Assembly: GCF_040939125.1 (NCBI RefSeq)
Contig: NZ_CP162495.1
Coordinates: forward strand, 1,798,001-1,862,000
DNA length: 64,000 bases
Direction of reading: 5' to 3'
Source: Clostridium sp. BJN0013
GTDB taxonomy: Bacteria > Bacillota > Clostridia > Clostridiales > Clostridiaceae
Position numbers and translations under genes: made by a program. How positions within the stretch are numbered: the stretch's first letter is position 1; every line of letters starts with the position of its first letter. The notes under the pieces were generated by a model that was not told the DNA's origin, searched no databases, and saw only the letters and a list, made by a program, of their open reading frames with translations. This document shows, one piece after another, positions 17,186 through 38,756 of the stretch.

Positions 17186-17224
17186 ATGATAATAATTTTT
17201 ATAGGGATAGGAGGAATTTTCACT

Positions 17225-17683
17225 ATGAAAATGGATTTGACCATAAGGAGAGCTGACCAGGGTGATATTGAAATGATGACTCAGTTGTTAAAAGTTCTTT
17301 TTTCCATTGAGGAAGATTTCATTTTCAATGAGGAAAAGCAAAGGAGAGGTCTTGAAATCATGCTTGAAGACAGGGAGAATCGGTGTGTATTTATAGCGGA
17401 GTATAATGGCCAAATTGTGGGGATGATCTCAGGCCAAGTTTTGATTTCAACTGCTGAGGGAGGCATATCTGTATTGGTAGAAGATTTAATTGTTAAAGAG
17501 GTTTACAGGAAACGAAGTATTGGAAAAGAACTCCTTTTTAAAATAGAGAAATGGGCAGCTTTAAAGAAGGCAAAAAGACTGCAGCTTTTAGCGGAAAATG
17601 ACAACTCTCCCGCGTTAAATTTTTATAGGCATTTAAACTGGAATGATACAGGTCTTATATGTTTAAATAAAAAGAATATATAG
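17225..17683 (+). CDS. GNAT family N-acetyltransferase
   Basis: About 152 residues with the acetyl-CoA loop region VYRKRSIGKELL and the C-terminal ENDNSPALNFYRHLNW typical of GNAT enzymes. ATG 17225 has AGGAGG 12 bp upstream, better than the more distal in-frame ATG. The substrate is unknown. It is the last gene before the RNA element preceding nifV-omega, and read-through from it could reach the nif genes. Confidence 0.85.
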   Translation: MKMDLTIRRADQGDIEMMTQLLKVLFSIEEDFIFNEEKQRRGLEIMLEDRENRCVFIAEYNGQIVGMISGQVLISTAEGGISVLVEDLIVKEVYRKRSIGKELLFKIEKWAALKKAKRLQLLAENDNSPALNFYRHLNWNDTGLICLNKKNI

Positions 17684-17716: not shown

Positions 17717-17796
17717 GGAGTATACCTTTTAGTTTTGTGAAGGAAATGCCAGAAGTATACTCAAAAAATGAATTAGGATATGTTAAATTGTAACCT
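17717..17796 (+). ncRNA. Conserved hairpin RNA element upstream of nifV-omega (copy 1)
   Basis: An 80 nt block about 88% identical by eye to 24735-24814. GAGTATA pairs with TATACTC, then an internal loop, then TTTT pairs with AGAA (one U-G), closing the invariant 20 nt loop AGTTTTGTGAAGGAAATGCC. A second, weaker arm ends in GTAAC. A TTGACG -35-like box lies at 17695. I do not recognise it as any riboswitch class I know. Its place 77 bp before nifV-omega, and of its twin before nifB, suggests nitrogenase-specific regulation (inference). Confidence 0.6.
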
Positions 17797-17872
17797 TATA
17801 TAACTTATTATAACATAAAATGTCATTATTACTGTCTATTTTAAATGTTAATTAAATAAAGGAGGGTGCATT

Positions 17873-18934
17873 ATGTCAGTTATAATAAAGCACAATAAAA
17901 AATTTATTATAGATAGAACTTTACCGGAAATTATGAAAAGATCAGAAAAGATTCATGAAAATATGATAAAAAATTTTTTAATGTTACTAAAGGAAGTAGG
18001 TGTAGATTTAATAGAGATAAATAAGAGTACTTTAAGTAAAATTAAAAATTTTCCTAGAGACCTAGATTATATATACAATGTAGATGATATTTGTGATATA
18101 TATTTTTTAGATAAATGTGAATTTAAATTTAAATATATAGCTGTGGATTATAAAAAGGCTGTTACTTTTAATAAGGATATTTTAAATAGATTGAAAGATA
18201 GGAAGATAATACTTGAGGTGGATATTAAAATTTTAGATAAATTACTTTCAGGTGAGAATAATAAAATTTTTAATGAGTTAAACATAAGTTGTTTGAGAAT
18301 AAAGGGTATTGTAAAATACAATTTATCAGGATGGAGCGGATTAATAGAAAATATAAAAACACGTTTTTCTACGGATGTGGACTTTTGTCCGGATAATAAA
18401 TTTTACATGGCAACTGCAATAGGTATGGAAGCTTGTATCGATGGCGCGGATTTTATAACGGGAACTTTTAATGGACAAATTTATGGATTTGCATCTATAG
18501 AGGAAATTGTTTTAGGACTTAAAGTGATAAAAAAGGGTGAAGTATCTGGAAATTTAAAGTTAGTAGGAGACCTGGCAAAAGTATATACACAGCTGACAGG
18601 GGAAAAGGTCTACTGTATGAAAGCTGTAATTGGAGAAGATATATTTAAATATGAATCGGGTATTCATGTGGATGGAATAGCAAAAAATCCTTATACTTAT
18701 GAACCTTATAATCCATATGATATTGGAGAAAAGAGAACCATGTATATAGGAAAACATTCAGGCAAAAAAGCGGTAATGTTGCGCCTTAAAGAGCTAAATA
18801 TAGACTATGAAGGAATTAATGGAAATAATTTTTTAAGTAAGATAAGGGAAACCAGTATTAAACTAAAGAGAAATATTTTTGATGAGGAGTTAATTCAAAT
18901 CTATAACGACTTTAAAAATACTTGTTTGCAATAA
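17873..18934 (+). CDS. nifV-omega: Homocitrate synthase, omega subunit
   Basis: 353 residues corresponding to the C-terminal half of NifV/LeuA-like synthases: MATAIGMEACIDGADFITGT, the KYESGIHVDGIAKNPYTYEP signature near residue 260 and GKHSGKKA near residue 300. The N-terminal ~150 residues look like a degenerate barrel. Split nifV-omega/alpha genes are known from C. pasteurianum. Homocitrate is the organic ligand of FeMo-co and FeV-co. AGGAGG precedes ATG. It opens the plus-strand unit nifV-omega, nifV-alpha, NifX fusion, anfO. Confidence 0.88.
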   Translation: MSVIIKHNKKFIIDRTLPEIMKRSEKIHENMIKNFLMLLKEVGVDLIEINKSTLSKIKNFPRDLDYIYNVDDICDIYFLDKCEFKFKYIAVDYKKAVTFNKDILNRLKDRKIILEVDIKILDKLLSGENNKIFNELNISCLRIKGIVKYNLSGWSGLIENIKTRFSTDVDFCPDNKFYMATAIGMEACIDGADFITGTFNGQIYGFASIEEIVLGLKVIKKGEVSGNLKLVGDLAKVYTQLTGEKVYCMKAVIGEDIFKYESGIHVDGIAKNPYTYEPYNPYDIGEKRTMYIGKHSGKKAVMLRLKELNIDYEGINGNNFLSKIRETSIKLKRNIFDEELIQIYNDFKNTCLQ

Positions 18935-19045
18935 GGGGGAGGATAATTGTAAGTTATCCATTAAGTTAAATTGGTTGATGCATAAATTCAAATTGTAAAT
19001 TAAAAAGGATGTGAATTGTGCATTGAAAAAGAGGTGGGATGTAAA

Positions 19046-19855
19046 GTGAATGTTAGTATTGTAGACACTACTTTGAGAGATGGAGAACAAAAGGCTGGCA
19101 TAGCATTAGGTATAAAAGAAAAAGTAAAAATTGCTGAAATTGTAAATGATATGGGCATTGCTCAGATAGAAGCAGGAACAGCATCTATGGGGGGAGATGA
19201 AAAGGAAAGTATTGAGAAAATTGTAAGCCTGAATTTAAACAGTAAGATATCATCATGGAATAGAATGAATATAAAGGACATAAATCATTCCATAGATTGT
19301 GGCGTGGATATAATTCATATATCCATTCCTTCATCAGATATTCAAATTAAATCTAAACTAGGGAAAGATAGGACTTGGGTTATAAATAATATAAAAAGAT
19401 GTATTACTTATGCATTGGATAAAGGATATGAAGTAACTGTAGGATTGGAAGATGCCAGTAGGGCAGACATAAATTTTTTAGTTGAATTATGTAAAATTGT
19501 TTTTGAAATGGGAGTAAAGAGAGTTAGATATGCAGATACAGTGGGTATTTTATATCCGAGGAAGATTTTTTACCACATAAATAAATTGAGACAAGAGGTG
19601 CCAGTAGAAGTAGAAGTGCACACACATAATGATTTTGGAATGGCACTTGCCAATTCTTTAGGAGCAGTAGAGGCCGGAGTTATGTATGTAGATTGTACTG
19701 TTACAGGTATAGGAGAACGTGCCGGTAATTGTGATTTTGTAAAGTTTGCTAAAGTTTTATATATGCTGGAAGGTAATAAAGTATCCTGTAGAGATTTTGA
19801 TGATTTAATGGAAATGGAACAACAAATTAAAGATATTATAAAATTGTCAGAGTAA
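19046..19855 (+). CDS. nifV-alpha: Homocitrate synthase, alpha subunit
   Basis: Catalytic HMGL-like barrel of the split homocitrate synthase, which condenses acetyl-CoA and 2-oxoglutarate. The metal-binding start VSIVDTTLRDGEQKAGIA and EVHTHNDFGMALANSLGAVE carry the usual D/R and HxH residues. GTG 19046 is preferred because GAGGTGG lies 9 bp upstream; an in-frame TTG at 19016 has no site. About 269 residues. The 3' end abuts a remnant of the dispersed repeat. Confidence 0.9.
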   Translation: MNVSIVDTTLRDGEQKAGIALGIKEKVKIAEIVNDMGIAQIEAGTASMGGDEKESIEKIVSLNLNSKISSWNRMNIKDINHSIDCGVDIIHISIPSSDIQIKSKLGKDRTWVINNIKRCITYALDKGYEVTVGLEDASRADINFLVELCKIVFEMGVKRVRYADTVGILYPRKIFYHINKLRQEVPVEVEVHTHNDFGMALANSLGAVEAGVMYVDCTVTGIGERAGNCDFVKFAKVLYMLEGNKVSCRDFDDLMEMEQQIKDIIKLSE

Positions 19856-19873
19856 TTAAGAATCACTTGATTT
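19856..19873 (+). repeat. 3' tip of the dispersed ~200 bp repeat
   Basis: TTAAGAATCACTTGATTT is identical to the right terminus of the family and begins one base after the nifV-alpha stop codon. Nothing else of the element remains, pointing to deletion or a partial insertion. Confidence 0.55.
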
Positions 19874-19898
19874 GTATAGAAATAGGAAGGAGATTACT

Positions 19899-20540
19899 AT
19901 GGGGATGTACATGGTAAGTTATGATTTAAGTCATCCGGATTACAATAATGAAAAAGTAAAAGGGGCTATACAAAGTTATGAAGATTGGTGCCATTATCTG
20001 GATATAACTACCTACGTAATAAAAACTTCTGCATCTTATGAAGATATAAGAAATTCTTTGAGTAAATTTTTAATAGGTACTGACAGGTTAGTTATTTGTG
20101 AAATTCCTAATCCTGAAGTGTGGGTTACAAATAAAAAGTTAAATTGGAAAAATAAAACCTATGATGCCAGATATAAAAATATTGATAAAAAAAATAATTA
20201 TAAATTAGCAATCTCAAGCAAGACAGGTGAGAATATAGATGAACATTTTGGACATACTGATAGATTTTATATTTATTCCTATGATAAAAATGGTATTAAT
20301 TTTGTAGAAATAAGAAAAGTCTACAGGTACGGTATAGGAGTTGAGGAATGTAGTAACCATGATGAGAAAATTTCTAAAATACTAGAAACCATAGAAGACT
20401 GTGATATTGTGCTAACTTTAAAAATAGGAGTGGAGGCTATAAAGAAACTAAAGCAGAAAGGTATTGAAGTAATTCAGATAAATACAACTGTAGATAAAGG
20501 AATTGAGAAAGCTTTAGAAGAGATTACTATGATGAAGTAA
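19899..20540 (+). CDS. Cas2-like domain fused to NifX/dinitrogenase cofactor-binding domain
   Basis: 213 residues. Residues 3-79 (MYMVSYDLSHP, a WCHYLDITTYVIKT strand pair and DRLVICEI) match the small Cas2/SinR-like ferredoxin-fold family. Residues 101-210 are a NifX/NafY domain (KLAISSKTGENIDEHFGHTD and CDIVLTLKIG), about half identical to the C-terminal domain of NifB in this window. No CRISPR array or cas1 is present, so a CRISPR role is rejected. The second half probably binds FeV-co or its precursor. The first half may give dimerisation or nucleic-acid contact (inference). Start chosen from AGGAGA before ATG 19899. Confidence 0.8.
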   Translation: MGMYMVSYDLSHPDYNNEKVKGAIQSYEDWCHYLDITTYVIKTSASYEDIRNSLSKFLIGTDRLVICEIPNPEVWVTNKKLNWKNKTYDARYKNIDKKNNYKLAISSKTGENIDEHFGHTDRFYIYSYDKNGINFVEIRKVYRYGIGVEECSNHDEKISKILETIEDCDIVLTLKIGVEAIKKLKQKGIEVIQINTTVDKGIEKALEEITMMK

Positions 20541-20616
20541 ATTGTTAAAATATCATTGTGAAAGGGGGATTATTATACTAAATTTACAATTATATTATAA
20601 ATTTAGTAAAAAGATT

Positions 20617-21255
20617 ATGAATAAAGAAATTGCAGTATTAGAAAATTATAATGGAGAAATAGCTTCTTTTTTAGAACCAGGTGTAGTTAAAATATATACT
20701 AAACAGGATAAAGACTGGAAGATAAAAGATGAAATAATTTTTTCAATATACAAAATAACTGATGTAAATTTAATTCGAGAAAGAATTATAAAGATGGTAG
20801 AATCTCTAGGACAATGCAAAATTTTTGTAGGAAGAAAAATTGGAGGAATTCCCTACAGCATTTTAGAAAGATTTGAAGTGAATTCCTGGGAAATAACCGG
20901 AAGGCCTTATGAATTTCTAGATCATGTTATGGAAACAGAGGAAGATGAAGAACGTAAACTATTAAAATCTTCTTCACAATCTCAAAATAAGCGTGTATGT
21001 GAACCTGTCAAAATTGGACAAGAGGGTCATTATTTTTTAGATCTTATTAAGGTACAGCAGCAGAATCCAAATATTACTACCAAACAAATATTAGTTCCAT
21101 TTTTTAAGAATCAAACCTTTTCTGAGTTGGTAATAAACTGCAGTCATGTCCCAAAGTGGTTTGAAAAAGAATTGGATAATTTTGGTTTAAAAGTTGATGT
21201 TCAAATAGAAAAAAAGGACCGGTTTAAAGTAACTGTTAAATATAAGACATGTTGA
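20617..21255 (+). CDS. anfO: AnfO-family nitrogenase accessory protein
   Basis: About 212 residues: NKEIAVLENYNGEIASFLEPG at the N-terminus, CKIFVGRKIGGIPYSILE and the WEITGRPYEFLDHV stretch are hallmarks of AnfO. The C-terminal half is a ligand-domain-like tail (IGQEGHYFLDLIKVQQQNP). AnfO is known from Fe-only nitrogenase clusters and its biochemical role is unclear. Here it accompanies V nitrogenase genes. ATG 20617 starts at the conserved N-terminus but has a weak site; an AAAGGGGG sits further upstream without a standard start codon, so the start is uncertain. A bidirectional terminator follows. Confidence 0.8.
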   Translation: MNKEIAVLENYNGEIASFLEPGVVKIYTKQDKDWKIKDEIIFSIYKITDVNLIRERIIKMVESLGQCKIFVGRKIGGIPYSILERFEVNSWEITGRPYEFLDHVMETEEDEERKLLKSSSQSQNKRVCEPVKIGQEGHYFLDLIKVQQQNPNITTKQILVPFFKNQTFSELVINCSHVPKWFEKELDNFGLKVDVQIEKKDRFKVTVKYKTC

Positions 21256-21293
21256 GACCAGGTCTATTTTACGTAAGATAATGATATTAATAG

Positions 21294-21341
21294 AAAAAGG
21301 ATTTATTATGTTGTTTTACACCACCTAATAAATCCTTTTTT
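21294..21341. terminator. Bidirectional terminator between anfO and nifI2
   Basis: AAAAAGGATTTATTA (21294-21308) pairs with TAATAAATCCTTTTT (21326-21340). The A-run on one side and T-run on the other allow termination of the convergent transcripts from both directions. Confidence 0.88.
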
Positions 21342-21361
21342 CTTAACAGATAATTTTTATA

Positions 21362-21733
21362 TTATAAAGCCAGTACGCCTTTTTCTGAAGTCCTTATTCT
21401 TATAACTTCAGTAACATCTTTTACAAATATTTTTCCATCTCCTGGATTATGGGTTTGATTTGTGCTGATAATTATATCTACTACTTCTTGTACATCCTGG
21501 TCATTTACCATTATTGTAAACAATCTTTTGGATATTAGTCTGTGTTGTTCGGATAAATTTTCTGCTTGGTGTTTATTTATAGATATTTCGCCATTGGATA
21601 CCTTAAGATCTACCATTTTTTTACCGCGTCCAAGAACTTTTCTACAGGTAAAGCAAGGAAAGCCTGCTTTTTTTAAATTAGTTGCAGTTTTACTCACCAT
21701 ATTCATTCTAATAATAGCATTAATTTCTTTCAT
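21362..21733 (-). CDS. nifI2: PII-like nitrogen regulator NifI2
   Basis: 123-residue GlnB-family protein: NAIIRMNMVSKTATNLKKAG at the N-terminus, an enlarged T-loop region and GDGKIFVKDVTEVIRIRT near the C-terminus. With NifI1 it forms the complex that inhibits dinitrogenase when ammonium is plentiful and releases it on 2-oxoglutarate in methanogens and clostridia. It follows nifI1 by 17 bp. Unusually the pair is not placed between H and D genes but is transcribed toward anfO. Confidence 0.88.
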   Translation of the reverse strand: MKEINAIIRMNMVSKTATNLKKAGFPCFTCRKVLGRGKKMVDLKVSNGEISINKHQAENLSEQHRLISKRLFTIMVNDQDVQEVVDIIISTNQTHNPGDGKIFVKDVTEVIRIRTSEKGVLAL

Positions 21734-21750
21734 AGTGTCATCTCCTTTAT

Positions 21751-22077
21751 TTAAAGTTCTTTAGAGCCTGTACTTATCGTGTAAACTTCGTCTACAGGTG
21801 CTGTGAAAATTTTACCATCTCCAAATGCCCCTTCTTCCCCAGTTTTTGCTGTGTGTATTATAATATCTATTACTTCATCTTTGTCAGTGTCATTTACAAC
21901 AATCATGAGCATTTCTTTAGGGATTTCATCATAATGTATGGAACCCACTTGAAGCCCCTGCTGCTTACCCCTTCCTACAACATCATATTTTGTAACAGCC
22001 GGAAAACCTGCACTTGAAAGTGCGGATAAAACTGACTCTACTTTTTCTGGTCTTATAATAGCTTTAATCATTAACAT
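21751..22077 (-). CDS. nifI1: PII-like nitrogen regulator NifI1
   Basis: About 109 residues beginning MLMIKAIIRPEKVESVLSAL, with the NifI1-type T-loop GRGKQQGLQVGSIHYDEIPK and the C-terminal FGDGKIFTAPVDEVYTISTG. ATG 22077 has AGGAGG seven bases upstream. It binds 2-oxoglutarate and ATP/ADP in characterised homologues. Pairing with NifI2 gives post-translational switch-off of nitrogenase. Confidence 0.9.
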   Translation of the reverse strand: MLMIKAIIRPEKVESVLSALSSAGFPAVTKYDVVGRGKQQGLQVGSIHYDEIPKEMLMIVVNDTDKDEVIDIIIHTAKTGEEGAFGDGKIFTAPVDEVYTISTGSKEL

Positions 22078-22176
22078 AGAATTTCCTCCTAACAAAAGTT
22101 ATTTATTTTATGAACGTCCTTGATTTGAACGTTATTATCTTTAATTTTAGGTATCAACTATAATATTTAAGAGTAT

Positions 22177-22773
22177 CTAAATTTTCCATATATCATCGAA
22201 ACATCTTTTTCTGTTTTTTATATTTCCTTTACTGCAGGTGTAGCAAAAAATTTTTTTGGCTTCCCGCCTTGTAATGTTACACTCTGGGTTGTGTCTTATC
22301 CAATGAATAATATTTTTTAACCTGAACATATTAATATCATTTATTCCTGTATTTAAGAGTCTTTTAATTATTGGCTTAAGTCCACCTTCGTCGGACATAA
22401 ATATAGTTATACTTAATGCTTTTGCAATGGCTAGTGAATACACCTCTCCTAAATGGCCGTGTCTTTTACAGAGATTTTCAAGGCCTATATACTCTTCACA
22501 TAAAATTTTAAATGAATCTTTATACACGCTATATCCAATTTTATCAAGTATATTTTTTGGATATAATATCTCTAATTTTTTCATAGCTATTAGTTGTTCT
22601 AGCTGTTCTCTTTTTGTGAGAATTTCTTCTTTATAAACATATTCATGTATGTAAGCCTTATCTGTTATATTATTAATGATTTTTACAAAAGCATTTATAT
22701 CTTCAAATTGTACTAACTTATAATAAATATCCGCATCTAAAATTAAACAGCTGTATTTTCCATTATAAGTCAT
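22177..22773 (-). CDS. PIN-like domain protein of an XRE/ImmA module
   Basis: 198 residues with a PIN-like layout: LILDADIYYKLV at the N-terminus, a central GHLGEVYSLAIAKAL helix with Glu and ITIFMSDEGGLKP near the end of the domain, which could form the acidic metal site of an RNase. A Cys-bearing tail (KIFCYTCSKGN, RRCFDD-like) follows. It overlaps the upstream peptidase gene by 11 bp, so the two are co-translated. The toxin role is inferred from family and gene order. Confidence 0.6.
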   Translation of the reverse strand: MTYNGKYSCLILDADIYYKLVQFEDINAFVKIINNITDKAYIHEYVYKEEILTKREQLEQLIAMKKLEILYPKNILDKIGYSVYKDSFKILCEEYIGLENLCKRHGHLGEVYSLAIAKALSITIFMSDEGGLKPIIKRLLNTGINDINMFRLKNIIHWIRHNPECNITRREAKKIFCYTCSKGNIKNRKRCFDDIWKI

Positions 22774-23623
22774 AAGGTATCTCTTCTAACCCTTCTTCTG
22801 AAAGATGTTTAGGTAATTTTTTTTTCACACCAAGTTTTTCAGGTGTTAAATCAAATAATTTTAATACATACTTTAATTTATCATAAGTTCTTACAGTCAT
22901 CTCATAAGAATTAATTGCTAAATCGATAAAGTTAGAGAAGCTCTTAATTCTTGTCAGTTCATTGTTCCTGGAACACAAACCAAGCCTATTTTGTAATTGA
23001 AATATGGAATTATTACAATTAATATCAATTAATTCTTTATATCTCTCATAGGATATTTTACCTATACAGTACAATTTTAGTATCATAGGTTTATAAGGAA
23101 ATAAAAATATATCCATTAGCCTTATAATATCTTCCGTAGTTATAGAATCCAGTTTATTTATTTTCATTTTTAGAAGCTGTGATTCTAAAATAGTGTCTTT
23201 TACCAATAACTCAGAGGCAAAATAATTTGCTAGCATTTCATTTTTATCTATGTTCTCCATACTATCAAAGACATAATTAAATATTTTATCCTCCACAAGA
23301 AGCTCTTCATGATCTCCGGCAATACCAATAATATGTGAAAATTCATGAGCTGCTGCAAATATTTGTATTTCATAGGGCATGAAGGTATTTATGAAGATAA
23401 TGTTTTCTTTGAAGTGATTATTGTCTATTTTAATATAAAAAGCACACACATTATCCTTGATGGGATAATAAAGTACCTTACCTACTGATTCTAATAGCCT
23501 AAACATATCATCTTTTATTATAGGATTAATGATGTGATTTTCTTTTATCAATATGTTAATTTTAGATTTGATACTTTTGATGTCATTTTCCAGAAGTACT
23601 TTTTTTAGATAATTTGAATTCAT
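22763..23623 (-). CDS. ImmA/IrrE-type metallopeptidase
   Basis: 286 residues with the zinc motif AAHEFSHIIG near residue 93 and a downstream glutamate in NEMLANYFASELLV, characteristic of the COG2856 ImmA/IrrE peptidases, which cleave or act on XRE-type repressors. It overlaps the upstream XRE gene by 41 bp. The order repressor, peptidase, PIN effector suggests a self-controlled switch or toxin-antitoxin-like module. Confidence 0.85.
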   Translation of the reverse strand: MNSNYLKKVLLENDIKSIKSKINILIKENHIINPIIKDDMFRLLESVGKVLYYPIKDNVCAFYIKIDNNHFKENIIFINTFMPYEIQIFAAAHEFSHIIGIAGDHEELLVEDKIFNYVFDSMENIDKNEMLANYFASELLVKDTILESQLLKMKINKLDSITTEDIIRLMDIFLFPYKPMILKLYCIGKISYERYKELIDINCNNSIFQLQNRLGLCSRNNELTRIKSFSNFIDLAINSYEMTVRTYDKLKYVLKLFDLTPEKLGVKKKLPKHLSEEGLEEIPYDL

Positions 23624-23951
23624 GCAAATCTTCCTCCATATTTATATATTCTTCAATTATGAAATATATAAGTTTAAAATTATCTTTGTTATAAAAGCTG
23701 TCAATGAATTTTTCAGATAAATTATCTTCACAGTAAATTTTTTTCTTTTTCCTTAAAAGCTTTTCTGGATCTACATCTAAAGTATTTGCAATTTTAGCTA
23801 TTTCAACAGCATTTAGTGCTTTCTTACCTTGTACAATTTGTTTAAATACCTCATCTGAAACTCCAATCTTATGGGCAAACATAGATTGAGTCCAATTTTT
23901 TTTGTTAAGTTCAATAAGAATACTATTTCCGATTACTTGAAAGAAATTCAT
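23583..23951 (-). CDS. XRE-family transcriptional regulator
   Basis: About 122 residues with an N-terminal HTH (KNWTQSMFAHKIGVSDEVFKQ, then NAVEIAKIANTLDVDPEKLL) and a lysine- and acid-rich tail. ATG 23951 follows GGTGAGGTG at good distance; the in-frame GTG three codons upstream overlaps that site. First gene of the XRE/ImmA/PIN unit, read from the conserved promoter at 24122-24150. Likely autoregulator and substrate of the ImmA-type peptidase (inference). Confidence 0.85.
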   Translation of the reverse strand: MNFFQVIGNSILIELNKKNWTQSMFAHKIGVSDEVFKQIVQGKKALNAVEIAKIANTLDVDPEKLLRKKKKIYCEDNLSEKFIDSFYNKDNFKLIYFIIEEYINMEEDLHEFKLSKKSTSGK

Positions 23952-24121
23952 TGCGAGCACCTCACCATTATTTTTAACCTTCAGGTGATATATTTTCTAT
24001 TTAAATATCAGTTTTTAATGTTCAATAAAGAAAGTATGATAAAATATAATAATTTGGTATCAAAAATTATATTATACATTGCAAATGGCTGATTTAAATA
24101 TATTTTATATTGTTTCGTATT

Positions 24122-24150
24122 ATTATATTTTTTATTTAGAGAAAAGTCAA
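24122..24150 (-). promoter_or_regulatory. Promoter of XRE/ImmA/PIN module (copy B of the shared type)
   Basis: On the minus strand TTGACT (24150-24145), a 17 bp spacer and TATAAT (24127-24122) are followed by AATACGAAACAATA. Sequence and layout match the copies at 16833 and 41779. The AATACGAAACAA start region could be an operator for the XRE protein. Confidence 0.82.
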
Positions 24151-24163
24151 GTTGTTGGAATGA

Positions 24164-24536
24164 ATTTTCACTTAATTGGAATGAGTTTTTATTATGGAAT
24201 TCTAAAATAATATAGTAAATCGTTTGTATAAGCAATAAATAATTAACTATTTATCAATAATTTATAGATTTTTTGATAAATAATCAAAATACTATTGCAA
24301 TTTACGAAACATTACATTACAATATTAACAATATAATAATATAATGTTTTATACAAGTTGAAATAAATTAGCATAAAAATGTTATGCGATATTATTACTA
24401 TTAAAAATTAGAAAAGGGGATGTGTAAATAAAAGAATAGAATTTTAGGTAGTTATTAATATATCAATTTTAATACTATTCTTATGATATATTATTATTAA
24501 TCGTATATTTATTTTAATAAAATATCAATAAAACTA
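24164..24536. other. AT-rich spacer without gene
   Basis: About 370 bp of very AT-rich DNA between the divergent XRE module and the nifB promoter. It holds a small inverted repeat (TTTATCAA near 24250 with TTGATAAA near 24275) and a TTACGAAACATTAC segment near 24302 that recalls the start region of the shared promoters. No open frame is convincing. Confidence 0.5.
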
Positions 24537-24565
24537 TTGCCTTTTTAGAAAAATTGTGGTATATT
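24537..24565 (+). promoter_or_regulatory. Probable promoter of nifB
   Basis: TTGCCT (24537-24542) and TATATT (24560-24565) are spaced by 17 bp. Transcription from here would give a leader of about 360 nt that includes the conserved RNA element at 24735-24814. No sigma-54 type GG-N10-GC site was found. Confidence 0.5.
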
Positions 24566-24734
24566 TTCATATAATTATTATTCAAAATCATACTAACACT
24601 TTTTATAAGAATCTAAAAAGCTTGATGTTCAATCAATATTTTATTGTTAGATAGTTATATTGGTAATTAATTTAGAAATATAGAAAAATAATTGTAATAG
24701 GTTGTGAATAATAAGGTGGGTTAATATCAATATA

Positions 24735-24814
24735 GGAGTATACCTCTTAGTTTTGTGAAGGAAATGCCAAGAGATATACTCAAAAAATGAGTTAGAACAT
24801 GCCAAATTCTAACC
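24735..24814 (+). ncRNA. Conserved hairpin RNA element upstream of nifB (copy 2)
   Basis: Twin of 17717-17796. GAGTATA pairs with TATACTC; TCTT pairs with AAGA, closing the same loop AGTTTTGTGAAGGAAATGCC. Relative to copy 1 one pair changes from U-A to C-G, a compensatory change. A second perfect hairpin follows (GTTAGAA with TTCTAAC). It lies in the leader of nifB. Function unknown; a metal, cofactor or nitrogen-status sensor is conceivable. Confidence 0.62.
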
Positions 24815-24935
24815 ATATATATTAAAATTATACCATAAAAGAGCAGCAGGTTCAATATAGTTTTTAAACTGCAATTGGTAATCTAAGGCAAATACAAAAG
24901 ATTCTAAACCAAAAGCTGATAAGGAGATGATTGAG

Positions 24936-26282
24936 TTGAAAAATAAAAATTTAAGGGCTGTAGATTATAATCCATGTGAAATCTATGTTCCAATTAATAG
25001 GGCCATGAAATCAAATATACATCCCTGTTTTGGAGATAACGCTCATAAATTTGCCAGAATGCATATACCTGTGGCTCCTAAATGTAATATAAGCTGTAAT
25101 TACTGCAGTAGAAAATATGATTGTGCAAATGAAAGTAGACCTGGAGTTACAAGTGAAATTTTAAGTCCGGAAGAAGCCCTTGAAAAATTTAAAGTAGTTA
25201 AAAGTAATATGAAAAATCTAACTGTTGTAGGCATAGCAGGTCCTGGAGACGCACTGGCAAATTTTCAAGAGGTAAGAAAATCTTTAACACTTATAAGGGA
25301 AGAGTCTCCTGAAACTATATTTTGTCTATCAACCAATGGACTTATGCTTCCACTTTATGCAAATGAACTTATAAAACTTGGGGTATCCCATGTCACAGTA
25401 ACCATAAATGCTGTAGATAAAAAAATAGGAGCAAAAATATATAAGGAAGTTAACTATCTAGGTCATAAATATGTAGGAGAAGAAGGGGCAGAAATACTTT
25501 TAGATAAGCAGCTTAAAGGTCTTAAATATTTATGTTCAAATGGCATAGTGTGTAAAGTAAATATAGTTATGCTTAAAGGAATAAATGATAAGCATATAAA
25601 AGAAGTTGTTAAAAAAGTTAAAGAGTGCGGGGCATATATGACAAACATAATGCAGATGATACCAGTCCCAGGAAGTAGATTTGAACATTTGCCTCTGGTT
25701 TCAAATATAGAGTTGAATGAAATGAGGAAAAAATGTGAAGTTGATATAAAACAAATGTATCACTGCAGACAGTGCAGGGCAGATGCAATAGGCACCTTAT
25801 CCCAAGATCTTTCTATAGATTTCAGAAATGCGGGATGTGGAATCTGTGAAAGTAAACATTCTGTTAAAGTAGAAAAACACAACCTTGAAAAGAGCATATC
25901 TAAAGGCAAAAAGTATAAATTTGCAATTTCATCCAAATCAGGCATTAATATAGATCAACATTTCGGACATGCTGATGAATTTTACATTTATTCATATGAT
26001 TCAGGCACTGTGAAATTTCTGGAGAAAAGAGATGTAAATAAATATTGTACAGGAATTCAGGACTGTGATAAACATGATGATAAAATTTCAAGGATAATTA
26101 AATCTATAAGGGATTGTGATGCAGTACTTGTACTTAGAATTGGACTTGATCCAAAAGAAAAATTAGAAGTAGAGGGAATTAAAGTTATAGAGATGTATGA
26201 TCCTATAGATAAAGGTATTCTCCGGGCTGTTCAGGAATTTGAAGAAGTTGACTGCCAGTTATCTTCTGTTATTGGAAAGTAA
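24936..26282 (+). CDS. nifB: Nitrogenase cofactor biosynthesis protein NifB with NifX-like domain
   Basis: Radical SAM enzyme making NifB-co, the carbide-containing precursor of FeMo-co, FeV-co and FeFe-co. It shows the cluster motif CNISCNYC near residue 50, the NifB body, and a fused NifX-like domain in the last ~120 residues (KFAISSKSGINIDQHFGHAD). TTG 24936 is preferred: AAGGAG lies 9 bases upstream, whereas ATG 24927 directly abuts that site. About 448 residues. The NifX tail resembles the fusion protein at 19899-20540. Confidence 0.93.
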   Translation: MKNKNLRAVDYNPCEIYVPINRAMKSNIHPCFGDNAHKFARMHIPVAPKCNISCNYCSRKYDCANESRPGVTSEILSPEEALEKFKVVKSNMKNLTVVGIAGPGDALANFQEVRKSLTLIREESPETIFCLSTNGLMLPLYANELIKLGVSHVTVTINAVDKKIGAKIYKEVNYLGHKYVGEEGAEILLDKQLKGLKYLCSNGIVCKVNIVMLKGINDKHIKEVVKKVKECGAYMTNIMQMIPVPGSRFEHLPLVSNIELNEMRKKCEVDIKQMYHCRQCRADAIGTLSQDLSIDFRNAGCGICESKHSVKVEKHNLEKSISKGKKYKFAISSKSGINIDQHFGHADEFYIYSYDSGTVKFLEKRDVNKYCTGIQDCDKHDDKISRIIKSIRDCDAVLVLRIGLDPKEKLEVEGIKVIEMYDPIDKGILRAVQEFEEVDCQLSSVIGK

Positions 26283-26337: not shown

Positions 26338-27233
<896 letters not shown>

Positions 27234-27410
27234 CTAAGAATTTTGCGTATGCCTAAAGCATGTTAGATGTCTTAATGAGTCTAATTGTTGTAAATGCCTC
27301 CTCTTTTGTATATTACTTGGAAATTTAAAGATACATGAATTAAAAATGTGAACGGAGTGGAGGTAGTTTACTTCAAAAATTATAATTTTAAAAATTAAGG
27401 AGGTATGTAA

Positions 27411-28802
<1,392 letters not shown>

Positions 28803-28810
28803 GCATATCT

Positions 28811-29149
28811 ATGAAAAATAGAGTAGAAGAATTATTTTCATTTATTCAAGAACGTTATTTGTGGCAATTTTATTCTCGTTCCTGGGATAGAGAAGAGAAT
28901 ATAAAAGGAATTTTGGATGCTACATTTGAAATTTGTACAGGTAAGCAAGTAAAAGATAAAACATTAATGAATAAATATTTCTATACTGAGGCAAAGGCAT
29001 TTTCAGAAGTTATAAAAAAGAAGTTTCCGTGGTTTTTAGAACTTGATGAATCAGAAAAAAAATCTGTAATTAATGACCTTCAGGCAAAATTGTTAGATGT
29101 AGTTGTAACAAGGTCATTAAATGCTGAATTAAAGAATCCAAATTATTAA
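28811..29149 (+). CDS. vnfG: Vanadium-iron nitrogenase delta subunit
   Basis: 112-residue third subunit found only in V and Fe-only nitrogenases. It shows LWQFYSRSWDREENIKGILD at residues ~17-36 and a C-terminal VVTRSLNAELKNPNY as in known VnfG. ATG 28811 (MKNRVEELF) fits the family length of 113; an in-frame upstream ATG inside vnfD would add 15 foreign residues. It lies 8 bp after vnfD. Confidence 0.92.
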   Translation: MKNRVEELFSFIQERYLWQFYSRSWDREENIKGILDATFEICTGKQVKDKTLMNKYFYTEAKAFSEVIKKKFPWFLELDESEKKSVINDLQAKLLDVVVTRSLNAELKNPNY

Positions 29150-29157
29150 TAAATTAG

Positions 29158-30558
<1,401 letters not shown>

Positions 30559-30585
30559 TTCATAATCAATAAACTGGTAATTTTA

Positions 30586-30638
30586 AGTATGTTGCCCATT
30601 TGACTAAAAATCAATTAGTTATTAATGGGCAATATGCT
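30586..30638 (+). promoter_or_regulatory. Long inverted repeat between vnfK and vnfE
   Basis: AGTATGTTGCCCATT (30586-30600) pairs with AATGGGCAATATGCT (30624-30638): 15 positions, with G-T pairs, around a 23 nt loop. No T-run follows, so it is more likely an mRNA-stabilising or partial attenuation hairpin that sets the ratio of structural to assembly proteins than a full terminator. Confidence 0.55.
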
Positions 30639-30670
30639 CAATTAATTAAATTCTCAGGGGGTGCATTTTA

Positions 30671-32197
30671 TTGAATAGTATAAATGATAGTATTGTTTTT
30701 CATGGTAAATTGAGTAGATTATACCGTCTAGCTAAAGAAGGCAAAATTAAAACTAATCTGCAGGGCAGTCATACCCGTCCGTGTAAATTTTGGACAGCTA
30801 CAAAAATTTTGAGTGGTATAAGAAATTCCATTGTCATTGCCCATGGCCCCAGCGGATGTGCCTATGGAGTTAAACAATCATATAAGTTAACAAACAGTAG
30901 AAACAGTGGTGCCCCTTATGAGGCAGTAGTCAGTACCAATATGGATGAAAAATATGTAATATATGGGGGAGAGAAAGGGTTAAAAGGAGCCATTAAAGAA
31001 GTAGATGACAAATATCATCCGGATGTAATTTTTATTGCTACCAGCTGTGCAACTGGAATTATTGGAGATAATGTGGATGCTGTGGCAGATAAAATAAAGG
31101 ATGAGATAAATGCCAAAATAATGCCTATACATTGTGAAGGATTTGCAGGAGAATACAGAAGTGGATTTGATCTGGTATTTAAACAAATTGTAAGATTCAT
31201 GGACCCTCCTACTGAAGAAGAAAAAGCTAAATTGGCACATTCTGTGAATATTGTAGGGGGTAAAATGGGACCTGAAAGAACAGAAGTGGATACAGATGTA
31301 AAAGAATTGGTAAGATTGATAAAGGGAATGGGTGCAGAAGTTAATTCAGTTATTGCAGGTAATTGTACTTTAGAGGAAATTAAAAGAGCACCGAGTGTTG
31401 CTGTAAATTGTACTCTTTGTCTTGATTTAGGCTATGCCATAGGAAACGCTATGTTAGGAGAATATGGAACTCCATTAAACTCCACAATATTGCCTTATGG
31501 TATTAGTGCCACTAAAAAATGGTTAAAAGGTGCAGCTAAAAAATTAGGAATGGAAAAAGAAACTGAAGATTTAATAGAAAGAGAATATAATGAAATAAAA
31601 GATGAATTTGAGGAAGCTAAAAAATTTCTTCAAGGGAAACTGGCTATTGTTGAGGGACATGATGCTATTAAATCATTATCCATTGCACATATGCTTGAAC
31701 GTGATCTTGGAATGCGTCCGGTTATATTTAATTTTCATCCTTGGAGTACAGAGGCAAGGGAAACCAGTATAGATTATTTGTTAGAAACTGGATTGGATCC
31801 TGAGGTTTTAATTACAAAAGGTACTATTGCTTTTGGTAAATATGAATCCATGAAGCAGACGGAAGAGGAACTGCTGGCCTTTCTTGGGGGACTCAGTGAG
31901 GATTCAGCTGTTTATTTTGGTTCTTCTCTCAGCTTTCCAACCATACCTTTGGTGGATTTAAATGCTATACTAAATCGTCCGAGATTTGGATTTAGGGGGG
32001 CACTTAAAGTGGCTAAGTGTGTTAAAACAGCACTGGAATATTCTTTTAGGCCAAGGAGTTCATTATCTAAAAGAATGGTTTTTCCTGAAAAGTCGGGCCT
32101 TGCATCTATCCAATCATTAACGCCTAAGCTAGGGCAAGATATGCCTGATTGTACAGTATATGCACATAGGAGGAGAGGCAAATGTATGATGAGTTGA
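30671..32197 (+). CDS. vnfE: FeV-cofactor assembly protein VnfE
   Basis: 508 residues, NifE-like scaffold half on which NifB-co is matured. It has CKFWTATKILSG with the first cysteine near residue 39, AHGPSGCAYG, TSCATGIIGDN and the C-terminal FGFRGALKVAKCVKTAL. The start is TTG after AGGGGGTG; the first in-frame ATG is far downstream. It overlaps vnfN by 16 bp. A VnfE/N pair next to vnfDGK is usual in V systems. Confidence 0.88.
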   Translation: MNSINDSIVFHGKLSRLYRLAKEGKIKTNLQGSHTRPCKFWTATKILSGIRNSIVIAHGPSGCAYGVKQSYKLTNSRNSGAPYEAVVSTNMDEKYVIYGGEKGLKGAIKEVDDKYHPDVIFIATSCATGIIGDNVDAVADKIKDEINAKIMPIHCEGFAGEYRSGFDLVFKQIVRFMDPPTEEEKAKLAHSVNIVGGKMGPERTEVDTDVKELVRLIKGMGAEVNSVIAGNCTLEEIKRAPSVAVNCTLCLDLGYAIGNAMLGEYGTPLNSTILPYGISATKKWLKGAAKKLGMEKETEDLIEREYNEIKDEFEEAKKFLQGKLAIVEGHDAIKSLSIAHMLERDLGMRPVIFNFHPWSTEARETSIDYLLETGLDPEVLITKGTIAFGKYESMKQTEEELLAFLGGLSEDSAVYFGSSLSFPTIPLVDLNAILNRPRFGFRGALKVAKCVKTALEYSFRPRSSLSKRMVFPEKSGLASIQSLTPKLGQDMPDCTVYAHRRRGKCMMS

Positions 32198-33522
32198 AAT
32201 TCCATAATTGTGAGCACAGCAAGGATCCGGTTTTAGGATGTGCTCTTGAAGGTGTTGCCAGTGTAATAGCGGGAATAGATGATGTGAGTATTGTTATTCA
32301 TTCACCACAAGGTTGTGCAGCAACAGTGGCGAATGCATATGATTTACATGAGATAGATTTTACCAGGAGAAAAATAGGCTGTACCCGTTTGTTTGAAACA
32401 GATGTTATTATGGGAGCTTCAGAAAAACTTAAGCAGCTTATAAAAGATGCAGACAATACTTTTAATACTAAAACTATGTTCGTGGTGGGTACCTGTGCTG
32501 CGGATATAATTGGTGAGGATATAGGAGGGATATGTAAAAGTATGCAGCCCGAGGTAAAGGCAAGACTTATACCTATAGTTGCAGGGGGATTTAGAGGCAA
32601 CAGTTATGATGGACAGGATATAGCGCTAAATGCCATTATACCTCTTATAAAGAAAAGTGAAAAGAAATACAGAAATAGTGTAAATATTATATCACCGCAG
32701 GCAAATTTAAATCCTACATGGTGGGAAGATTTAAATTGGGTAATTAAAACTTTAAATTCATTAGGGATAAATGTTCAGGCAGTTCTTCCGCATAATACTT
32801 CCATGGAAGAAATCGAAAATTCAGCTTCAGCATCAGCTAATATACTTTTAAGCCATGATGCAGGTTATCAGTTTGCAAAAAAAATGGAGAAGATACATCA
32901 TATACCTTTAATTCTTTCTGATATTCCACTGCCTATTGGCACAGAAAATACTGCCAGGTGGCTTAGGGCAATAGGTATGTACTTTGGTGTTGAAGATAAA
33001 GCGGAACAAATAATTAAAGAGGGAGAAGAAAAAGTAATAAGTTTATTGAGAAAGAGGGCACTTATGATAATTCCACGTTATCGGAACTGCAGGATTGCCA
33101 TATCTGCAGACGCCACTATAGGAATTGGCCTTGTGAGAATGTTATTTAAAGAATTAGAAATGATTCCTGAAATCATAATGATAAAATCAGGTAGGGAAGA
33201 AGCAAAAAAAGTACTCAACTGGGAGCTAAGCACCCTGGGTATTTCACCCAAGGTAGCATTTTCTGTGGATGGATATCAGATTAAAAAAGGATTAAGTGAC
33301 TTTCATGTTGATACAGTTATTGGTTCTGCCTGGGAAAAATATATGGCAGAAGAAATAGGAATAAAAGTTGCCTTTGATGTTTTAAATCCCACAAATAGAG
33401 ATATATATGTGGATAGAGCATATTTTGGATATGATGGTATGCTCAATATACTGGAGATCATGGGCAATGATTGGGAAAGGGCATACCGTTCAAAGGAGAT
33501 TAGCTCGGCACAATATGAATAA
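32182..33522 (+). CDS. vnfN: FeV-cofactor assembly protein VnfN
   Basis: 446-residue NifN-like partner of VnfE. It has GCALEGVASVIAGIDD, HSPQGCAATVANAYD, VVGTCAADIIGEDI and YFGYDGMLNILE at the C-terminus, the nitrogenase component 1 fold. Its AGGAGG site lies inside the end of vnfE. The gene ends 6 bp before the convergent regulator gene, without a visible terminator between. Confidence 0.87.
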   Translation: MYDELKFHNCEHSKDPVLGCALEGVASVIAGIDDVSIVIHSPQGCAATVANAYDLHEIDFTRRKIGCTRLFETDVIMGASEKLKQLIKDADNTFNTKTMFVVGTCAADIIGEDIGGICKSMQPEVKARLIPIVAGGFRGNSYDGQDIALNAIIPLIKKSEKKYRNSVNIISPQANLNPTWWEDLNWVIKTLNSLGINVQAVLPHNTSMEEIENSASASANILLSHDAGYQFAKKMEKIHHIPLILSDIPLPIGTENTARWLRAIGMYFGVEDKAEQIIKEGEEKVISLLRKRALMIIPRYRNCRIAISADATIGIGLVRMLFKELEMIPEIIMIKSGREEAKKVLNWELSTLGISPKVAFSVDGYQIKKGLSDFHVDTVIGSAWEKYMAEEIGIKVAFDVLNPTNRDIYVDRAYFGYDGMLNILEIMGNDWERAYRSKEISSAQYE

Positions 33523-33528
33523 TTTTTA

Positions 33529-34476
33529 CTAGCTTTCTCCTATAATTTTTCCTGTTTCACTTGTATCATATACGTCAATACCTTGAATTTCCATTTTGAA
33601 TTCCTGGGAATTTAAAACGGAAATTATTGCTTGAATAATTGGAGAATCAAAGTCTTCTTTTTTAATAACTAAATCACACTTTTGTTTCTGTATTGGTATA
33701 AATTCTATATTTTCCACCTGGGAAGCGGTTTTCTGGGTTCCCACAGCAATATCTGCCTCACCCCTGGATACAGCACTGGCTGCAGCAAAATGAGAAAAAA
33801 CTTCTACATCATAACCATTGATAAGTTTTCCTGATATTCCAAGTTTCCTAAATTGTTCGTCTATAAGTATACGTACACCGGAACCTTTTTCCCTATTTAC
33901 CATAACAATGCCAGACCTTGCTAAATCATCCCATGAGGATATATTTTTGGGATTTCCTTTGAAAACATAAAAACCCTGCATATGACATGCAAGACGGACA
34001 ATTATGCAGGGAACACCAGGTATTAATCTGCGGACGTAGGGTATATTGTAGATGTTATTGTCTGAATCCCATAGATTGCAAGAAGTAGCAGAAGCACTGC
34101 CTTTATATAGATTTATCAATCCATCATAGCCTCCTATATATCTTCGCAGTACTTGAAATTCATTTGGATAATGTCCCAGATGCTGTGTCAATACATCAAG
34201 AAGCAGTTCCTGACCGCATATTATAAAATTTTTGTCTTCAGATAATGGGGGCTGGGGTACTTGAGTCTTATGTTCAATAACAGTATTAATAATTTTAATA
34301 TTATTAGTTCTGCTTTTATTTTTATAATATTCAACATCTTCAATATCAACACGAACCTTTCGGCCAATGCGATAAGAAGGCAATTCACCTTTTTTAATCA
34401 AATCATATACTGTATTTTTTGATATATCTAAAAGTTCGGCTACTTCTTGTGCCGATAATGATGTTTTATCTTTCAT
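33529..34476 (-). CDS. One-component regulator: excisionase-type HTH plus molybdate-type PBP domain
   Basis: 315 residues. Residues 5-55 form a MerR/excisionase-like HTH (LSAQEVAELLDISKNTVYDL, then YRIGRKVRVDIEDVEYY). Residues ~85-310 are a periplasmic-binding-protein-like domain of the COG1910 kind (LRRYIGGYDGL, SGIVMVNREKGSGVRILID, GEADIAVGTQ) linked in annotated relatives to molybdate or tungstate. It sits between vnfN and a metal importer, so it is a candidate sensor of Mo, W or V. A palindrome lies 40 bp upstream of its start. Confidence 0.82.
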   Translation of the reverse strand: MKDKTSLSAQEVAELLDISKNTVYDLIKKGELPSYRIGRKVRVDIEDVEYYKNKSRTNNIKIINTVIEHKTQVPQPPLSEDKNFIICGQELLLDVLTQHLGHYPNEFQVLRRYIGGYDGLINLYKGSASATSCNLWDSDNNIYNIPYVRRLIPGVPCIIVRLACHMQGFYVFKGNPKNISSWDDLARSGIVMVNREKGSGVRILIDEQFRKLGISGKLINGYDVEVFSHFAAASAVSRGEADIAVGTQKTASQVENIEFIPIQKQKCDLVIKKEDFDSPIIQAIISVLNSQEFKMEIQGIDVYDTSETGKIIGES

Positions 34477-34590: not shown

Positions 34591-35670
34591 TTATTTTTTA
34601 GGATTCATTATATCTTCTAGATCTTCACTGTTTACATTATAATTATAATATGTTTTGTAAAATTCTTCTACCTCTTTATTCATATCTATATCTGTAAACA
34701 TGTCAGGGTATAAAGTTTTAGCTGCCCATAATACTTGTAGTGCATTATCACCACTTCTTGCACACCACACATTGACACCTTTGGGATTTATATAAACTTT
34801 ATTGTTTTTAACTGCATTAATGTCTTTAAATCGCTCATCTTTTAAAATTGCATCTTTGTTAGGTGCATCTCTGACTATAATTACATCAGGATTCCATTGG
34901 ACTACATTTTCCATAGAAACAGTTTGAGACATACCTGTAACTCCATTTTGTGCAGCTGTGTTTATGCCACCAGCTATTTCTATCCAGGAAGTAACTATTG
35001 AGTTATTTCCGTCGGTACTTAAAGGACTATCTGCTGAATAATACACTTTTAACTTGTCATTGTCAGAAATAGATGAAGTTTTTTCAGTAATACGTTTTAT
35101 ATTAGAATCATAATAGGAGCAAAATTCAGAAGCTTTTTTAGTTTCTTCTTCTCCAAGTAAATTCCCCATTAAAGTTACAGACTTTTTAAGTTCTTCTGGT
35201 GTATCGTAGGATATTATAACTACAGGTATACTTAATTGTTCTATTTTTTTCTGAAGTGCTTCTTTGCCCGACCATAATACAACTACATCTGGTTTTGATT
35301 TAATAAGTTCTTCAATATTTACTTCTTTGTCAAAAGGTGCCGATACTGTTTCTATTTTAGGATAAATTTTTATATACCAGGGATTGGATTTAATAGAAGG
35401 CAATGTTGCAACTATTTTATCAGCACCTCCTATCATCACTGCTAATTGAGTCATTGCCGTTCCATTTATGGCTATTCGGTTGACCTGGGAAGGTAGGGTT
35501 ACTTTCCTTCCTGACATATCCGTAATAGTTTTTTTAGCAGATTGTGTACTCTCACTCTGGGTTTGTTCAGATTGTTTATTTGTACATCCTGCTGACCACA
35601 GCACTAAAGTCAGTATTATTAAAAATAAATTTAATAGTTTAAAACTCTGTTTTTTCAAAGTTGAACACAT
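34591..35670 (-). CDS. Metal/siderophore-type ABC importer binding lipoprotein (third)
   Basis: 359 residues with a lipoprotein signal (lipobox LWSAGC, Cys about residue 29) and a class III FepB/BtuF-type ligand domain (DMSGRKVTLPSQVNRIAING, WNPDVIIVRD). The C-terminal AAKTLYPDMF-FYKTYYNYN pattern is shared with the two sister proteins in this cluster. AAGGAG touches ATG 35670, so an in-frame TTG four codons later may be the real start. It has no transporter subunits of its own and probably shares the one upstream. Confidence 0.85.
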   Translation of the reverse strand: MCSTLKKQSFKLLNLFLIILTLVLWSAGCTNKQSEQTQSESTQSAKKTITDMSGRKVTLPSQVNRIAINGTAMTQLAVMIGGADKIVATLPSIKSNPWYIKIYPKIETVSAPFDKEVNIEELIKSKPDVVVLWSGKEALQKKIEQLSIPVVIISYDTPEELKKSVTLMGNLLGEEETKKASEFCSYYDSNIKRITEKTSSISDNDKLKVYYSADSPLSTDGNNSIVTSWIEIAGGINTAAQNGVTGMSQTVSMENVVQWNPDVIIVRDAPNKDAILKDERFKDINAVKNNKVYINPKGVNVWCARSGDNALQVLWAAKTLYPDMFTDIDMNKEVEEFYKTYYNYNVNSEDLEDIMNPKK

Positions 35671-35699
35671 CTCCTTACATAATTCGTAAATTAATCAGT

Positions 35700-36782: not shown

Positions 36783-36823
36783 ATTGTAATCACTCCTAAT
36801 TATCTATTAATTTCTAGCAATAG

Positions 36824-38682: not shown

Positions 38683-38756
38683 CCTTTTTGATTTATATTA
38701 CTTTAAATGGGCAAAACCATTTGTAAATATATAAAATGAAATTTGCTCACTTAAAG

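Follow-up and report, generated by a model that had tools for sequence, protein, structure and literature searches.

Small RNAs that act on nitrogenase mRNAs are described, in passages of PMC9170634 and PMC6606865, from Pseudomonas stutzeri (NfiS and NfiR) and Methanosarcina mazei (sRNA154). Stem-loops at processing sites are described for nifH1, vnfH, vnfDG and fdxH1 of Anabaena variabilis (in parts of PMC4284476). Cis-encoded antisense small RNAs, as PMC9170634 characterizes them in one section, are made from the strand opposite their target and have full complementarity to one mRNA. In this report, we describe an element that occurs twice in a 64,000-nucleotide stretch of the genome of Clostridium sp. 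BJN0013 (NZ_CP162495.1, positions 1,798,001 to 1,862,000; hereafter “the window”), in the leaders of nifV-omega and nifB. This element is probably the gene of a small RNA, oriented opposite to the nitrogenase operon in which it sits, and its RNA would be complementary to the host nif mRNA. The reading draws on sequence evidence for an opposite-strand promoter, a structure, its covariation, its strand and its placement at nitrogenase genes. The element looks like an apparently complete small transcription unit of roughly 55-90 nt, consisting of a promoter, a 5' hairpin, a linker and a terminator-like hairpin.

The element resembles the cis-encoded antisense small RNAs as outlined in PMC9170634 in its predicted opposite-strand transcription and its full complementarity to one mRNA. 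Unlike them, it forms a conserved family at molybdenum (Mo)-, vanadium (V)- and iron (Fe)-nitrogenase genes, with near-identical paralogous leaders as possible trans targets. With the A. variabilis structures, so far as the available text of PMC4284476 describes them, it shares conserved stem-loops beside nifH and vnf genes and a presumed post-transcriptional control; there, however, the structure belongs to the sense mRNA, close to a 5' end made by processing, whereas here the promoter and terminator-like signals are antisense. A further likeness is to the SRPS stem-loops of Clostridia, which sections of PMC4423207 and PMC10311766 present as intercistronic hairpins that could set operon stoichiometry; these are sense-strand elements, unlike the predicted antisense unit. 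NfiS, NfiR and sRNA154 are likewise small RNAs on nitrogenase mRNAs in the accounts cited, but they belong to other organisms and are set apart here without sequence comparison. The main text of PMC8219983 has neither “nif” nor “nitrogen”, that of PMC4423207 has neither “nif” nor “nitrogenase”, and none of the literature matches listed, in the portions of text they offer, concerns an antisense RNA at clostridial nif genes or at nifH-nifI1. Small RNAs acting on nitrogenase mRNAs are already known in Pseudomonas and Methanosarcina (PMC9170634, in part), and the element is therefore filed as a new small-RNA family of an established kind.

The original prediction placed two blocks of about 80 nt at 17717-17796 and 24735-24814, and both are found there. 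The 20-nt apical loop, AGTTTTGTGAAGGAAATGCC, is exact at 17731-17750 and 24749-24768 and is flanked by GAGTATA/TATACTC arms; no further site for it exists in the window at up to three mismatches, nor in any of 100 shuffles. A second hairpin and a third conserved box, both previously missed, also belong to the unit. In the nifB copy, read on the minus strand, the 3', terminator-like hairpin (hairpin 1) spans 24736-24781, with the loop at 24749-24768, and the 5' hairpin of the small RNA (hairpin 2), which shows pair changes in relatives, spans 24791-24813. The predicted promoter comprises an extended -10 box, TGGTATAAT, at 24827-24835 (the third box of the plus strand) and a -35 box, TTGAAC, at 24850-24855. 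The putative small RNA, of about 85-91 nt and antisense to the nifB 5' untranslated region (UTR), would occupy 24730-24820, both ends being predictions. The nifV copy starts 34 nt after the gene for a GNAT acetyltransferase. From its sequence and fold, its hairpin 1 lies at 17718-17762 (minus), with the same 20-nt loop at 17731-17750; hairpin 2, at 17772-17794, is mispaired in the window genome; and the extended -10, TGTTATAAT, at 17807-17815, has no matching -35, so that no strict promoter match results. A comparison of the two leaders finds essentially only the element in common. The nifB copy looks intact save for a weak U-tail. The nifV copy lacks a -35 and, as it has little else in common with the nifB leader, is either a relic or a binding site. 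Two further features were set aside. One is a short open reading frame whose start falls in the nifV copy's loop: by eye, the frame of the nifB copy terminates sooner and has a different reading. The other is a sigma-70 promoter on the sense strand, within the element at 24753-24780, whose boxes are not conserved.

The element is found beyond the window, and invariably, among confident matches, at nitrogenase genes. Two congeners, G011 and G004, have the same loop pair before nifV and nifB. A covariance model of the six nifB and nifV copies found a third copy in the window's own genome (G000), upstream of anfD, and further copies in the nifH-nifI1 gap of other species of the genus. A model (R3) built from 15 copies and run on 206 Clostridiaceae genomes gave 22 matches at E<=0.0031, all at nitrogenase genes: 13 in nifH-nifI1 gaps, and three each in leaders of nifB, nifV and anfD. 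Fifteen of the 22 are the model's own training copies. Of the remaining seven, four are very similar to training copies (those of G005 and G006 and the two in the nifB and anfD leaders of G004), whereas the three of G001, G190 and G192 have diverged further. Eight weaker R3 matches (E 0.02-0.3) include one nifH-nifI1 gap, that of G002; the other seven are not accompanied, within some 1.5 kb, by any homologue of the nif proteins that the window encodes. A class-level sample of 391 genomes yielded nothing new and credible, the one weak match outside the genus (G363, E 0.04) having no homologues of the window's nif proteins nearby; both genome searches used strict filters and scored 18 or 9 candidates per genome, so weak copies can escape them. 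The supposed restriction to nifV and nifB leaders does not survive, given the copy before anfD and the main site in relatives, the nifH-nifI1 gap. The loop had been called invariant, and it is so among the six nifB and nifV copies of three species; in the other copies it differs. Several candidates were discarded: weak matches of the first model, R1, at up to E 0.5 (G096, G007, G066, G164 and G166) lie in genomes where no nif context was noted; 17 exact 18-mer stretches in unrelated taxa, found by a contig scan, were taken from their record titles as chance; and three-mismatch loop matches elsewhere in the own genome and in relatives are, by eye, without the flanking stems.

On the strand opposite the operon, the invariant columns of the third box over the 26 sequences of alignment A2 spell TGnTAnAnT, which we take to be the extended -10 of a sigma-70-type promoter. 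TTGAMM stands 17 nt further upstream on that strand, to give the full antisense pattern TTGAMM-17-TGnTAnAnT. In the window's nifB leader, a promoter scan returned TTGAAC-17-TATAAT at 24855-24827 (10/12, with TG before the -10), in a region that holds 20 promoter-like rows versus 12.6 expected. The antisense promoter pattern (spacer 17-18) recurs, at the matching position, in 27 of the 30 aligned copies, versus none on the sense strand and a shuffle mean of 0.06. Distinct gaps downstream of a nifH homologue were also scanned with a spacer of 16-18 allowed; these number 69, of which 56 lead to nifI1 and 13 to vnfD. The pattern occurs in 26 of them on the antisense strand and in none on the sense strand (shuffles, 0.21). 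These 26 gaps, 24 of the nifI1 type and two of the vnfD type, fall in eight genera by the kinship table; 24 have a spacer of 17-18, and five (G006, G021, G027, G128 and G135) lie outside the 30 copies. The pattern is in none of the other 42 nifH-homologue regions, in which other genes follow. In Mo-nif operons the promoter straddles the nifI1 ribosome-binding site. That it is an accident of this overlap was considered and rejected, as it persists in six nifB and anfD leaders that have no nifI1 start; the three anfD leaders have a perfect -35, TTGACA. An opposite-strand promoter, such as a cis-encoded antisense small RNA would need, is thus predicted at most copies.

The helices of the element covary beyond a tree-based null, most clearly in hairpin 1. 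In the 24 copies of alignment A5, 16 of 18 pairs are changed on both sides, versus 3-8 in slid structures, and on the plus strand 86.6% of cells pair, compared with 31-51% when one arm is slid by one to three columns. The null consisted of alignments simulated without structure on the inferred tree (GTR+G, 1000 replicates). For the whole structure, none of the 1000 simulations comes up to the real alignment in pairing, in both-side changes or in covariation score, and this is true on either strand. The signal is just as clear for hairpin 1 by itself, where 11 of 11 pairs are doubly changed (4.4 expected), and hairpin 2 alone beats the simulations on pairing and covariation score. A closing helix, P1, drawn round both hairpins in the fold of G003, found no support from RNAalifold on 22 extended copies and was dropped. 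The upper-stem pair changes first read from the two window copies depend, in our reading, on the placement of a 1-nt indel, and true covariation becomes visible only once relatives are added. What stands of the original prediction is a structured RNA with covariation at nitrogenase genes and with no known Rfam family: searches of Rfam 15 on both strands found none for it at gathering score in the window and none at E<=5 in ten element-bearing loci, where the single row returned was a miRNA match under threshold, in one locus and away from the element.

The same alignments indicate the strand of this RNA. When the plus strand is read, the mismatched or wobble cells comprise 36 A.C versus eight G.U; on the minus strand A.C turns into G.U, and pairing rises from 86.6% to 93.2%. 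The nifB small RNA folds on the minus strand into two hairpins at -27.6 kcal/mol (z -5.0; none of 200 shuffles as good), and the anfD copy of the own genome reaches -27.0 kcal/mol (z -4.7) on minus versus -10.2 (z -1.3) on plus. Twelve loci were folded on both strands; z is -3 or lower in 11 of them on minus versus eight on plus. Further, hairpin 1 comes last on the antisense strand and is followed there by a U-rich stretch. Its tail averages 8.4 U per 15 nt antisense versus 3.1 sense over 30 copies, means that include five mismeasured rows, and the sense strand after hairpin 1 has only 2-4 U in 15 in nine nifB, nifV and anfD copies. Terminator-like signals were scored as hairpins with a folding energy of at most -10 kcal/mol and a U-rich tail behind them; 23 of the 26 promoter-bearing gaps have one on the antisense strand and one gap has one on the sense strand, versus 0.5 expected in shuffles. 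This energy threshold replaced an earlier, looser criterion, under which 25 of 26 gaps qualified although shuffles would give 17.3. The leader RNA or riboswitch on the sense strand that was first proposed is not supported: it is the opposite strand that has the conserved promoter, pairs better and carries the terminator-like hairpins.

Several observations weigh against an antisense small-RNA gene. The three aligned copies without a promoter are all three nifV copies, which have no -35; the fold of the window's nifV copy is also poor on either strand (z -0.81 on minus and -0.89 on plus), and the nifB copy has a weak U-tail (7 U of 15). The plus strand has the lower energy in three of the 12 folded loci (the window's nifV copy, W_nifV, and G012 and G193). 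Neither leader yielded a site, on plus or on minus, in a terminator scan; as that scan admits loops of 3-8 nt only, it cannot detect hairpin 1. Of the 69 gaps, 43 lack the promoter, and 25 of these are at least 90 nt long. The promoter pattern was defined with these copies already in view, and close kinship is common among them, the 26 matches holding 22 distinct promoter strings; for both reasons the shuffle rates overstate the surprise. For hairpin 2 alone, the count of doubly changed pairs is reached by 239 of 1000 simulations. Alignment A5 was fitted to the structure. In the unfitted alignment, A3, the observed pairing is reached by no simulation, but the covariation score is reached by one and the doubly changed pairs by 17 of 1000, and the count of further pair types, one of five shuffle measures, is reached by all 500 shuffles.

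Should a small RNA indeed be made, its main targets might lie elsewhere, to be met in trans by, for example, its pyrimidine-rich loop, with the nif overlap a by-product of location. The promoter and terminator-like end fit such an RNA as well, and the loop of the nifB and nifV copies contains UUCCUUC, which we read as anti-Shine-Dalgarno-like. We nevertheless regard this as unlikely, as all 22 confident model matches lie at nif, vnf or anf genes and the loops differ between species.

A second alternative keeps the RNA on the sense strand, where the hairpins would be processing or stabilizing stem-loops in the nif mRNA that mark a processing site and give a long-lived flanking message. The main position directly after nifH suits such a role, the hairpins form on the sense strand too in most of the 12 folded loci, and there is precedent in nif and vnf stem-loops at processing sites (portions of PMC4284476) and in clostridial intergenic stem-loops (portions of PMC10311766). 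It was for a time our working view, which the promoter and the count of A.C versus G.U cells reversed. Stabilization leaves both the antisense promoter and the better pairing on the other strand unexplained; the anfD copy of the own genome (W_anf) folds on minus and hardly on plus. W_nifV, too, forms its hairpins weakly on plus. As the whole explanation it therefore seems to us improbable, while stabilizing stem-loops and an antisense RNA could both operate.

The original prediction favored a sense-strand cis-regulatory leader or riboswitch that senses metal, cofactor or nitrogen status. A structured element in the long nifB and anfD leaders, downstream of a shared nif promoter box, is what such a device would look like. 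Yet the loop, its would-be aptamer core, differs outside three species, so that no conserved ligand core is apparent; 13 of the 22 matches lie between two operon genes; the distance to the next start varies; hairpin 1 of the leader copies has no sense-strand U-tail; and it is the other strand that carries the conserved signals. Metal sensing in particular is not favored, as the element occurs alike with Mo-, V- and Fe-nitrogenase genes. We hold a riboswitch to be very unlikely. Least credible of all is a DNA operator whose inverted repeats bind a dimeric regulator such as the HTH_17/PBP_like protein of 33529-34476: the repeats are present and a homologue of the regulator accompanies nine of 11 other vnf regions, but the spacing of the arms varies between copies and U-tails follow the arms mainly on one strand.

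If the element is an antisense small-RNA gene, it could work as follows. The opposite-strand promoter would start an RNA of roughly 55-90 nt, with the 5' hairpin at its start, then the linker, the terminator-like hairpin and the U-rich tail. This RNA may pair with the nif mRNA, loop first and then as a duplex, and the pairing may lower or separate expression of the downstream cistrons (nifI, nifDK, or nifB-vnf and anf) by cleavage or by blocked read-through. The RNA would in this way set a threshold that strong nif induction overcomes. The overlap with a transcribed target that such pairing presupposes is predicted from a nif-type promoter box and from the operon placement, 13 copies being flanked by nifH and nifI1 genes of one strand. 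In Mo-nif operons the element lies between nifH and nifI1; in the window genome, the leaders that hold a copy with the promoter are those of nifB-vnfHDGKEN and anfD. A conserved nif promoter box, TTGCCTTTTTAGAAAAATTGTGGTATATT, with a GATAAAT-like stretch upstream, stands at 24537-24565 (+), where it would serve the nifB transcript (TTGCCT-17-TATATT), and at L109:12283-12311, before anfD of the own genome; similar boxes, with up to seven mismatches, occur upstream of anfD in three genomes and before five Mo-nifH genes of the genus. Given this shared box upstream, the copies before nifB and anfD are probably part of 5' UTRs, to which the small RNA would be complementary.

The leaders also hint at their own origin. 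In those of nifB and anfD, TCAATA follows the third box at the spacing that it has, in Mo-nif operons, to the nifI1 start codon (by eye). The retention of this spacing points to an origin of these leaders in a nifH-nifI1 gap from which nifH and nifI1 were lost. An apparent decayed nifI1 ribosome-binding site and start, again by eye and at Mo-nif spacing, can be discerned at 24836-24870 (+) in the nifB leader.

In species that have both leaders, the nifB-locus RNA may also act in trans on nifV. The two are predicted to pair at -120 kcal/mol, whereas none of 194 control windows did better than -51.9; these energies ignore folding within each RNA. Binding of the nifB-locus RNA to the nifV leader in this species group would explain, we propose, why the loop is identical in nifB and nifV copies and different elsewhere. 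Extended further, the idea becomes that of an antisense RNA family, spread across the lineage in Mo-, V- and Fe-nitrogenase operons of Clostridiaceae, that acts on its own mRNA and, by way of conserved kissing loops, on the paralogous nifB, nifV and anfD leaders. We advance this wider scheme tentatively and would sooner doubt it than rely on it.

The window locus is a V-nitrogenase cluster, with a split nifV, a PF02579 (FeMo-co-binding domain) protein, AnfO, nifI1/nifI2, nifB, the vnf genes and an HTH_17/PBP_like regulator. Directly upstream of the nifV copy of the element is the GNAT acetyltransferase gene (17186-17683, +; Pfam Acetyltransf_1, 4.2e-16). Downstream is nifV-omega (17873-18934, +), which matches the C-terminal part of TIGR02660 (1.1e-35) and stays under the whole-protein cut-off, as expected because the gene is split. 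The P-II genes nifI2 and nifI1 (21362-22095, -; Pfam P-II) lie displaced, on the opposite strand. The interval from nifI1 to the nifB leader encodes, at 22177-23960 (-), an HTH protein of the Cro/C1 type, an IrrE-like peptidase (Peptidase_M78) and an unassigned protein of 198 aa, a group looking like a small toxin-antitoxin or mobile module. The nifB gene (24936-26282, +) scores 451 bits with TIGR01290 (cut-off 344); the TTG start at 24936 is our choice, that of the open reading frame list being 24927. There follow vnfH-vnfD-vnfG-vnfK-vnfE-vnfN (26406-33522, +). VnfD scores 932 bits with TIGR01860 (cut-off 823); VnfG and VnfK match vnf models best, yet under cut-off; and the names VnfE and VnfN rest on position, their best model being nifE, far under cut-off.

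Beside the vnf genes, at 33529-34476 (-), is the gene for the HTH_17 and PBP_like regulator. The homologues found in other vnf regions are 48-61% identical to it; the two closest congeners were excluded from that count, and the two vnf regions with no homologue are short of flanks. By analogy, we consider the regulator a candidate molybdate-dependent repressor. Binding proteins and a BtuCD/FepB-like ATP-binding cassette transporter, genes that we named by eye from sequence, adjoin vnf at 34591-39827 (-) and have homologues beside vnf in loci L102-L104; vanadium uptake is a possible role. Elsewhere in the window, a TPP riboswitch (229-338, +) and a glycine riboswitch (2000-2088, +) are both above the Rfam gathering score.

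The genome that contains the window, a single contig estimated to be 100% complete, has two proteins over the TIGR01862 cut-off, VnfD (window 27414-28802) and AnfD (G000:C1:542816-544192), and nothing else over it. As a query for Mo-type NifD we took that of G011 (TIGR01282, 709.7 bits, cut-off 653.6; TIGR01862, 653.3, cut-off 486). It found NifD at 94-100% identity in G011 and G004; in G000 it found no NifD, only VnfD (40%), AnfD (38%) and weaker homologues. A nitrogenase-like cluster at G000:C1:1080569-1091015 has a second nifB-like gene, one nifH-like gene and nifEN-like genes, and no NifD over cut-off. G000 thus encodes, as judged by these models, V- and Fe-only nitrogenase catalytic subunits without the NifD of a Mo-nitrogenase. 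According to a statement in a 2013 paper (PMC3578447), Anf and Vnf occur only in genomes with a full Nif set, and according to a 2022 abstract (PMC9542535) all diazotrophs isolated so far use the Mo enzyme. The absence of NifD from G000 departs from the view, as worded in that part of PMC3578447, that Mo-nitrogenase always accompanies the V and Fe enzymes.

The control of nitrogen fixation in Clostridia is, to our knowledge, poorly understood. A conserved antisense RNA in the nifH-nifI1 gap would be a concrete, testable post-transcriptional switch, at the point that divides the iron protein from both the P-II regulators and the catalytic subunits. Within the species group of the window, related copies precede vanadium- and iron-nitrogenase genes, and a kissing-loop family, if real, would tie cofactor synthesis and alternative-nitrogenase synthesis together by RNA. 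For the re-use of clostridial nif operons, the implication is that the nifH-nifI1 gap may carry a promoter that points backward.

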